Positions 16,185 through 44,142 of a stretch of 44,142 nt of DNA are shown piece after piece. A program made the translations under genes and the position numbers. The DNA comes from Clostridium algifaecis (lineage in GTDB: Bacteria; Bacillota; Clostridia; Clostridiales; Clostridiaceae): positions 1 through 44,142 of the forward strand of contig NZ_JAGGLM010000019.1 in NCBI RefSeq assembly GCF_017874415.1, read 5' to 3'. The first letter of the stretch is position 1. Every line of letters begins with the position of its first letter. The notes beneath the pieces were generated by a model, which had not been told where the DNA came from, searched no databases, and saw only the letters and a program-made list of their open reading frames with translations.

Positions 16185-16202
16185 GTATATATTAGATTAT
16201 AT

Positions 16203-16311
16203 TCTTATCAAGAGAGGTGGAGGGACTGGCCCAATGAAACCCGACAACCGGCATTCTCATTCGAATGTATCGGTGTTAATTCCTACGGAATAATTTTTCG
16301 AAAGATAAGAA
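16203..16311 (+). ncRNA. SAM-I (S-box) riboswitch aptamer
   Basis: The S-box core is nearly canonical: TTCTTATCAAGAGAGGTGGA, GGGACTGGCCCAATGAAACC, CGACAACC, then GGTGTTAATTCCTAC and GAAAGATAAGA closing P1 with the 5' TTCTTATC. It lies only about 20 bases after the T-box terminator in the same transcript. SAM binding should stabilise P1 and favour the downstream terminator, switching the sulfur operon off. Confidence 0.96.
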
Positions 16312-42473: not shown

Positions 42474-43097
42474 ATGAAGAATTTATGGAACATATTTAAA
42501 AAAGGCATAATTGCAGAAAATCCTATTTTCGTGCTTGCTTTAAGCCTTTGTCCAGCATTAGCAGTAACCAGCAAAGCAGTCAATGCACTTACAATGGGAT
42601 TATCTGTAATGTTTGTTATAACTGCAAATAATACAGTAGTTTCTATAACTAGAAAGTTTGTTAATCAAAAAGTTCGTGTACCAGTATATATTACTTCGAT
42701 AGCTACAATAGTTACTATGGTTGAACTTGTACTTCAAGCAGTTGCACCAGTTTTGTATAAAGCTTTGGGTATATATCTGGCTCTTGTAGTTGTTTTTGCT
42801 ATTATACTTGCACGTGCAGAAGTTTTCGCATCAAAAAATAAAGTAATACCATCATTCTTTGATGGACTTGGTATGGGAACTGGATTTTGTATTGCTCTTG
42901 TTGTAATTGGAATAATTCGTGAATTATTTGGTTCAGGAGCTATATTTGGATTTAAAGTATTAGGGGCATGGTATAATCCAGCTCTTATCATGATTTTACC
43001 TCCTGGTGGTTTTATATTAATTGGATATTTAGTTTCTATAGTTAAGATATATAACCAGCACCAGGAAAAGTTAAAAATGAGCAGAGGTGAAATGTAA
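42474..43097 (+). CDS. rnfE: Rnf complex subunit RnfE
   Basis: Integral membrane subunit of 207 residues with about six helices, homologous to RnfA and to NqrD. ENPIFVLALSLCPALAVTSK and GLGMGTGFCIALVVIGIIRELFGSG are characteristic and include the conserved cysteines that in related complexes hold a membrane-buried iron centre. It lies 4 bases after rnfG, and its TAATG stop-start overlap with rnfA implies coupled translation. Confidence 0.95.
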   Translation: MKNLWNIFKKGIIAENPIFVLALSLCPALAVTSKAVNALTMGLSVMFVITANNTVVSITRKFVNQKVRVPVYITSIATIVTMVELVLQAVAPVLYKALGIYLALVVVFAIILARAEVFASKNKVIPSFFDGLGMGTGFCIALVVIGIIRELFGSGAIFGFKVLGAWYNPALIMILPPGGFILIGYLVSIVKIYNQHQEKLKMSRGEM

Positions 43098-43675
43098 TGG
43101 CGTATCTTACTTTATTTATAAGTTCAGTAGTTATAAATAACTTTGTTTTGACTAGATTTTTAGGACTTTGTATTTTCTTTGGAGTTTCAAAAGATTTAAA
43201 TGCTTCCGTTGGTATGGGAATGGCAGTTACTTCAGTTTTGACACTTAGTTCTATATTTGCATGGATTGTATATCACTTTGTACTTTTACCATTCCATTTA
43301 ACTTTTTTAACTACAGTTGTTTTTGTACTTTTAATTGCAAGTTTTGTACAACTTCTTGAGATGATAATTAAAAAACAGGCACCTGCACTTTATAATATGT
43401 GGGGAATTTATTTACTTTTAATAGCAACAAATTGTATTGTGCTTTCAGTACCTCTTTTAAATGTAGATTCAAACTATTCATTCCTTATGAGTGTAGTTAA
43501 TGCTATTGGAGGAGGAATGGGTTTTGCACTTGCTATAATTTTGATGGCAAGTTTAAGAGAAAAATTGAGACTTGCTGATGTACCTAAACCACTTGAAGGA
43601 CTTGGAATTGCTTTTATTCTTGCAGGAATGTTAGCATTGGCTTTCCTTGGTTTTTCAGGAATGATAGCTGTATAG
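43097..43675 (+). CDS. rnfA: Rnf complex subunit RnfA
   Basis: Integral membrane subunit of 192 residues with six helices, opposite in topology to RnfE. FISSVVINNFVLTRFLGLCIFFGVS holds the conserved Cys, and NCIVLSVPLL and GGGMGFALAIILMASLREKL are family features. It overlaps the rnfE stop by one base. GAAAGGAG follows for rnfB. Confidence 0.96.
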   Translation: MAYLTLFISSVVINNFVLTRFLGLCIFFGVSKDLNASVGMGMAVTSVLTLSSIFAWIVYHFVLLPFHLTFLTTVVFVLLIASFVQLLEMIIKKQAPALYNMWGIYLLLIATNCIVLSVPLLNVDSNYSFLMSVVNAIGGGMGFALAIILMASLREKLRLADVPKPLEGLGIAFILAGMLALAFLGFSGMIAV

Positions 43676-43693: not shown

Positions 43694-44053
43694 ATGGAAA
43701 TAGCAATTATGGTTTTAGTTGTAATGACAGTTACAGGATTGATATTCGGGCTTGTGCTTGGATATGCAAATAAAAGATTTGCTATTGAATCAAATCCACT
43801 TATAGATTTAGTTGAAGAAGAACTCCCAAAAGGTCAATGTGGAGGCTGTGGATTTGCAGGATGCCGTGCTTATGCAGAGGCAGTAGTACTTGATAAAGAT
43901 GTAGCCCCAAATCTTTGTGTTCCAGGAAAAGCTGCTGTAGCAGATAAGGTAGCAGAATTAACAGGAAAGAAAGCAGAGGCTGTTGAACCTAGAGTTGCAC
44001 ATGTTATGTGTAAAGGTGATTCGAAAAAGGCAAATAGAAAATATGAAGAGTAA
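43694..44053 (+). pseudogene. rnfB: rnfB 5' part, interrupted after 119 residues
   Basis: RnfB accepts electrons from ferredoxin. The membrane anchor (1-24) and the first iron-sulfur motif, Cys49, Cys52, Cys57 and Cys75 (CGGCGFAGC), are intact. The usual protein is roughly 270-330 residues with several more ferredoxin clusters; here the sequence runs to NRKYEE and stops at 44051-44053. In the clostridial homologues I recall, the text continues KYEYEGI; none of the three forward frames after 44053 resumes that. The break therefore looks like an inserted or rearranged DNA segment rather than a point mutation. The rest of the gene may lie beyond the window. Typed as pseudogene for lack of an interrupted-CDS type; it could still be functional if spliced. 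Confidence 0.85.
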
Positions 44054-44142
44054 GCTCGGAAACTAATTTCAAGCTGGCTCAAAAATATTGGTTATGTTAT
44101 TTTTGTGCAGATAACTCTTAGAGGAAGACATTATTCCTAAAA
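44048..44142. mobile_element. Unidentified sequence interrupting rnfB (left end of an insertion or intron?)
   Basis: From about 44048 to the window edge the DNA does not code for RnfB. It begins with an imperfect hairpin, GAGTAAGCT (44048-44056) with AGCTGGCTC (44072-44080), eight pairs of nine across a 15-base loop. A smaller AGGAA/TTCCT hairpin lies near the end. No GTGYG start of a group II intron, transposase or recognised terminal repeat is visible in these 95 bases. Identity is unresolved. Confidence 0.35.

Follow-up and report, generated by a model that had tools for sequence, protein, structure and literature searches.

Insertion sequences (IS) that settle at a fixed distance from a host landmark have been described before. 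The ISAjo2-type IS1202 elements are targeted to dif sites at a fixed distance and in a fixed orientation; they have a length of 1.5 kb, imperfect inverted repeats, ends that begin with TGT, 5-bp duplications, a DDE transposase and a position 5 bp from the XerC site of dif (PMC10132070). The family described here, one member of which interrupts rnfB, shares with them the imperfect inverted repeats, the 5-bp duplications, the DDE transposase and the constant orientation at a fixed, short spacing from a host landmark; it differs in its length (about 1.9 kb in complete copies), in its ends, which do not begin with TGT, and in its landmark, a motif resembling a Shine–Dalgarno (SD) sequence about 10 bp away. 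IStrons, like the rnfB element, are mobile elements of Firmicutes that often lie inside genes; unlike it, they consist of a group I intron joined to an IS200/IS605- or IS607-type element, and their group A has neither terminal inverted repeats nor target duplications, group B both inverted and direct repeats (PMC4227781). A third comparison is with the IS1182 family (NCBIfam NF033551): the transposases of the rnfB-element family are likewise about 500 aa long and match the IS1182 model over roughly their last 190 residues, but they score far under its 270-bit equivalog cut-off. In the annotated IS1182 of Sporosarcina psychrophila, a single record with ends set by the best repeat only, the best inverted repeat was unrelated and no SD motif lay beside either end. 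MITEs are short, transposase-less elements with the ends of an autonomous IS, and a 110-bp copy in a relative (G005) is like them in keeping little more than its two ends.

The window, that is, the whole stretch of 44,142 nucleotides analysed here, makes up contig C19 in a genome of 2.96 Mb and 53 contigs, and it stops at 44142 because the contig itself ends there. The features near its end and the copies of the element in this genome are collected in Table 1. In the ORF listing, rnfC, rnfD, rnfG, rnfE and rnfA are all open frames, and rnfB is represented by an ORF at 43694–44053 of 119 aa with the C-terminus NRKYEE-stop. Native RnfB accounts for residues 1–118 of this ORF, of which the NCBIfam model NF005503 (RnfB) covers residues 5–118, and the final codon GAG and the stop TAA are supplied by an inserted element that starts at 44048. 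The earlier note was therefore right that the other rnf genes are intact and that rnfB breaks off after its first Fe–S motif. It had also pointed beyond 44142 for the remainder of the gene, and this lies on another contig of the genome: the 3′ half, beginning YKGVQDCYAANLLFGG, opens C2 behind the right end of the element. Searched with Fer4_9, the genome showed a ferredoxin-like frame right where C2 begins, which is the rest of RnfB; the frame reads YKGVQDCYAANLLFGGPK...EAAAN-stop and matches NF005503 from position 115 on. Among named relatives, the most similar RnfB proteins are those of Clostridium tyrobutyricum (80%) and Clostridium sp. cel8 (81%), and in both rnfB runs uninterrupted across the insertion point (RRYEYQGVKDC... 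and RKYDYVGVKDC...). PF04060 matched once in the readable genome sequence, the shortest contigs excluded, and therefore no second rnfB was found in that sequence; an intact copy elsewhere, raised in the note as a plain alternative, did not come to light there.

Table 1. Features around the interrupted rnfB and paired copies of the element in this genome (positions are those of the window unless contigs are named)
Feature	Position	Strand	Evidence or remark
rnfA, open frame, immediately 5′ of rnfB	43097..43675	+	ORF listing
rnfB 5′ part: 118 codons, N-terminal region and first Fe–S motif (PF04060)	43694..44047	+	ORF; PF04060, 42 bits; NCBIfam RnfB models
Left copy of the 5-bp target site duplication ATGAA	44043..44047	+	Unique pairing of left and right flanks
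IS element left end, 95 bases, cut by the contig end; premature rnfB stop (GAG TAA)	44048..44142	+	Three identical contig ends; 83/95 vs G230 left end
Left terminal inverted repeat GAGTAAGCTCGGAAAC	44048..44063	+	Pairs with right end AAGTATATTCGGAAAC read inwards; similar pairing in complete relatives
Hairpin noted earlier, part of the IS left end	44048..44080	+	z −2.57
rnfB copy	C19/C2		Duplication ATGAA, 5 bp
cheC copy	C12/C22		Duplication TAATAG, 6 bp
Third copy	C31/C8 end		Duplication TTTTA, 5 bp
Fourth copy	C10/C8 start		Duplication TAGTT, 5 bp

The 95 bases at the end of the window recur unchanged, in reverse complement, where contigs C10, C12 and C31 start, and the right end, represented by the first 95 bases of C2, recurs over 93–94 bases at both ends of C8 and at the end of C22. 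Each of these eight contig ends carries 93–95 bases of the element beside unique flank. When all four left flanks were compared with all four right flanks for a shared duplication, the left ends paired one-to-one with the right ends and no other pairing exceeded 3 bp; at rnfB, the right copy of ATGAA lies on C2 immediately past the right end of the element. The termini form imperfect inverted repeats (GAGTAAGCTCGGAAAC / AAGTATATTCGGAAAC). The cheC gene is split in the same way by another copy, and its halves, scanned apart, match PF04509 (CheC) with 60.6 and 41.3 bits. The inserted sequence is a mobile element, present at least four times in this genome, and because the readable ends are identical, its copies appear to have multiplied recently.

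The sequence that follows rnfB had been described in the note as non-coding, structured DNA whose opening hairpin would suit an intron or a transposon end. The inverted repeats, the target duplications and the identical copies at other contig ends identify it as a transposon end. The new sequence is real, and its description is better put as the repeated end of a mobile element (44048–44142). The hairpin at 44048–44080 is also real and belongs to this end, but it is modest (−9.8 kcal/mol; 5 of 200 shuffles fold as well), and the full 95-base left end folds less well (z −1.58; 14/200 shuffles as good).

A diverged right end was found on contig C15 next to a transposase ORF of 503 aa. The C15 IS, 1874 bp long with a 5-bp target duplication, splits a gene that resembles gamma-glutamylcyclotransferase (PF06094, 50.1 bits in one part, with the open frame continuing on the other side). 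The C15 ORF scored 25.6 bits against PF13751 (DDE_Tnp_1_6), just above the cut-off of 25.1, and the transposases of two relatives scored 19.1 and 20.6, so the cut-off is passed by one of the three scanned; against the IS1182 model, the C15 transposase scored 58.7 bits and the three together 49.7–58.7, short of the 270 required. A complete IS of 1861 bp with the target duplication GATTA is present in another genus (G230). Its transposase is 87% identical to the resident C15 transposase over 502 residues (the two proteins have 502–503 aa), and, where its ends align with those at rnfB, 83 of the 95 bases on the left and 83 of the 89 on the right are identical. The complete copies in C15, G230 and a further relative (G218) are about 1.9 kb long, and in C15 and G230 the transposase gene points away from the right-hand target. 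The element was absent from the viral collection by exact pattern, as was any relative of the family's transposase, and this transposase was unmatched in the phage collection. Taken together, it is highly likely that rnfB was inactivated by an IS, or by an internally deleted derivative of one, from a DDE family with only a remote relationship to IS1182, the target having been cut about 5 bp apart on its two strands and the right end facing an SD-like motif. That no second transposase was found in the genome says nothing on whether the rnfB copy is short, as the shortest contigs lay outside that search.

Several minor features of these copies were seen along the way. By eye, in the transposase leaders of G230 (L142, about 2220–2260) and C15 (L171), an inverted repeat (CCTCACAATAT...ATATTGTGAGG in C15) lies immediately before the transposase start codon and overlaps its own GAGG motif; such a repeat could mask the transposase ribosome-binding site in transcripts entering from outside. 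Near the C15 IS and its split gene are two overlapping serine-recombinase-like ORFs (L034, 1305–3870; by eye). A left end in G006 (L044, 1501–1595; 83% identical) starts exactly at GAG and lies upstream of AAGGAGG and a start codon; no right end was recognised there, and it is probably a decayed copy. The 110-bp copy in G005 (C10 of that genome, L065) sits downstream of a SAM riboswitch (RF00162, 90.1 bits) and, by eye, directly before the ribosome-binding site of an ABC-transporter-like ORF; here the mobile element seems to have extended a riboswitch leader. Finally, a three-codon frame (ATG/GTG-GAx-xxx-TAA/TGA) occurs from about column 67 in six of seven aligned right ends (not in G005); its third codon varies, and it may be a coincidence in a conserved stretch.

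The position of the right end was then analysed across relatives. The starting observation came from 12 right ends inspected with their flanks, and a right-end profile, using sequence only, was built from seven of those 12; of the 206 genomes of the bacterial family, 40 had a hit to this profile (E ≤ 0.01). Examination covered 38 of the 59 listed right-end matches, the remainder being G220:C130 (E 8e-18) and 20 weak matches (E 2.4e-4 or worse). The addition of 13 more distant copies gave 51 right ends, and 48 distinct sites were left after removal of three duplicate sites. Most of the right ends examined are followed by about ten bases, then by an AGGAGG- or GGGGG-like sequence, and usually then by a start codon; G makes up 58–74% of bases at positions +12 to +16, compared to roughly 16% further out.

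Under a strict criterion (a hexamer with at least 5/6 match to AGGAGG that starts +7 to +16 beyond the right end), the SD-like hexamer was present at 36 of the 48 distinct sites compared to 5.2% of 4452 control windows located further downstream in the same loci, with a peak at +11 that alone holds 16 sites. The binomial p is about 2e-36, a value that assumes full independence of the sites, whereas insertions that are related are partly dependent. With a looser purine criterion, 43/48 sites qualified (control, 7.4%). On the opposite strand of the same window beyond the right end, the strict motif was found at 0/48 sites, and the flanks outside known left ends contained it on either strand in 0 of 8 cases. 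The hallmark of target-specific IS elements, a fixed orientation and distance relative to a host motif, was thus observed, the motif here being SD-like. Divided by origin, the strict motif was present at 8 of the 12 sites that gave the idea, at 19 of 23 later ones found by right-end sequence alone and at 9 of 13 distant sites, which were placed after their flanks had been viewed; within this genome, it was present at four of five sites. An ORF of at least 50 codons begins at +15 to +42 in 38/48 sites, the interiors of rnfB and cheC counted, compared to a background of 25%. Among named records beyond Clostridiaceae, Thermoanaerobacterium and Carboxydocella plasmids satisfy the strict criterion, and Alicyclobacillus has GGGGG.

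A blind check was also performed, in which ends were set by inverted repeat and target duplication with a CGGAAA anchor and without any use of a flank motif; this anchored version was used as end-finding without a motif anchor gave too noisy results. Of 43 transposase loci, 23 were resolved, 10 were partial and 10 had no ends. Among the resolved rows, the target duplication was an exact 5 bp in 14 and 4 of 5 in the other nine; the inverted repeats matched at 11–16 of 24 bases in the 14 exact-duplication rows and at 9–18 in all 23, the floor being 9. The strict motif occurred in 16/23 resolved rows and was missing from seven, and in the rows with exact duplication it occurred in 12/14 (11 of 13 sites), the two others reading AAGGGG and ACGGGGG at the place. 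Some of the nine resolved rows without an exact duplication are doubtful, and in one (L192) the blind end differs from the end set by eye. As for the exceptions among the 48 sites, 12 miss the strict criterion, C15 included, and five miss the looser one, cheC included. The G-rich motif at G230 and at G054 (= L175) resembles part of a terminator rather than a ribosome-binding site. In the G230 copy, terminator-like sites numbered three compared to 1.3 in shuffles, and a promoter scan gave seven sites compared to a shuffle mean of 9.2, so that no outward promoter stands out.

These data lead us to favour, as a reasonably probable reading, an IS family spread across the Firmicutes in which the transposase recognises the SD motif on duplex DNA and inserts the element with its right end some ten bases 5′ of that motif, so that copies come to lie in 5′ leaders with reading frames whole and the insertions in rnfB and cheC are missed targets. 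Recognition of an SD-like tract in DNA would fall to the transposase, by itself or together with a host factor; the target would be cleaved about 5 bp apart on its two strands, and the right end would be joined about ten bases before the tract. Since such tracts mark gene starts in SD-rich genomes, copies would settle mostly in 5′ leaders, downstream of the promoter and ahead of the ribosome-binding site, and would leave the latter and the coding sequence intact. The rnfB and cheC copies would then be off-target insertions at SD look-alikes within genes; at rnfB, the look-alike is AAAGGAG, and the tract TATAAAGGAGTG supplies codons Y-K-G-V. Two considerations argue for a choice made at the DNA level: a fixed spacing is hard to obtain from selection against gene damage alone, and at three intragenic sites in this genome a comparable tract occurs where no translation starts (rnfB, AAAGGAGTG; cheC, GGTGAGGATG; C15, AAGGGGTGAG).

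A search of openly licensed papers gave no report of an IS family that targets Shine–Dalgarno motifs, which is weak evidence of novelty. We propose as new that an SD motif in DNA serves as the address of an IS family; fixed-distance IS targeting itself is known. Some eukaryotic elements settle just upstream of genes, and the family would, if this proposal is true, be a bacterial counterpart of them, one that finds gene boundaries throughout the genome by their ribosome-binding sites. The proposal would then predict the landing sites of the family in any SD-rich genome, and the rule could be of use where DNA is to be inserted in a 5′ leader with the frame kept intact. How an A/G-rich motif is recognised from some distance by a DDE transposase likewise becomes a question open to experiment.

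Another possibility is that the element is a mobile cis-regulatory leader, with copies inserting widely and being kept only where a two-hairpin right end before an SD sequence usefully controls the downstream gene. The right end is indeed conserved over about 95 bases, is predicted to form two hairpins (z −2.89) and mostly faces a gene start. However, no covariation was found in its predicted fold (0/26 pairs with both sides changed), and the spacing is present even in this genome's copies, which are identical and presumably recent. The spacing also occurs inside rnfB, cheC and the gamma-glutamylcyclotransferase-like frame at C15, where control of a downstream start would be senseless. We regard this reading as improbable and retain targeting of the SD motif by the transposase.

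The earlier note had thought a self-splicing intron, an IStron-like element or programmed excision worth testing, any of which would restore rnfB in the mRNA or the DNA. That identical ends split two genes, rnfB and cheC, is compatible with such an element, and the right end, like the left end over its first 33 bases, has a predicted fold more stable than that of most shuffles. On the other hand, terminal inverted repeats together with 5–6-bp duplications of the target are marks of a DNA transposon. Rfam showed no intron at gathering scores in the window and three contig ends, nor at E ≤ 1 in both readable ends, the C15 IS and two relatives; the four matches of the latter scan were the SAM riboswitch in G005 and three at E 0.096–0.83, far under gathering scores. 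Moreover, most right ends precede an apparent gene start (38/48 sites) and not the second half of a gene, and the protein encoded by the resident C15 relative is a DDE-type transposase, not an IS605/IS607 protein as an IStron would have. A common splice register for rnfB and cheC is also excluded if the copies are equally long: with duplications of 5 and 6 bp, respectively, a splice at fixed boundaries would be out of frame in at least one of the two genes. Restoration of rnfB by splicing or excision is therefore very unlikely. Equally unlikely is a misassembly at the repeat, in which rnfB would be whole and no element would ever have lain between C19 and C2 in the cell: the break coincides exactly with the repeat boundary, as happens in de Bruijn assembly, but eight ends carry element sequence beside unique flank, the four left and four right ends pair uniquely by their duplications, and a whole rnfB would be expected to assemble through.

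With insertion of an IS as the preferred reading, the consequences for the Rnf complex can be considered. The insertion most likely inactivates rnfB. The truncated RnfB retains the N-terminal region and the first Fe–S motif but lacks the ferredoxin-like part, and the complex is therefore most likely dead; from the predicted protein, we infer that RnfB, and hence Rnf, is non-functional in this strain. The earlier note had regarded such a loss as hard to tolerate in an acetogen, a premise that found no support: the acetyl-CoA synthase family PF03598 had no match in this genome (listed as 99.98% complete; some short contigs excluded), a result that is suggestive only, as the 14 control genomes, with matches in two methanogens, included no recognised acetogen. 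As acetogenesis is not indicated, loss of Rnf would be tolerable in principle. The rnfB case thus reads as a plain IS knock-out, with no new intron, in a Clostridium relative without sign of acetogenesis. Elsewhere in the window, Rfam matched a TPP riboswitch at 170–279 (68.6 bits) and a SAM riboswitch at 16202–16311 (86.8 bits).
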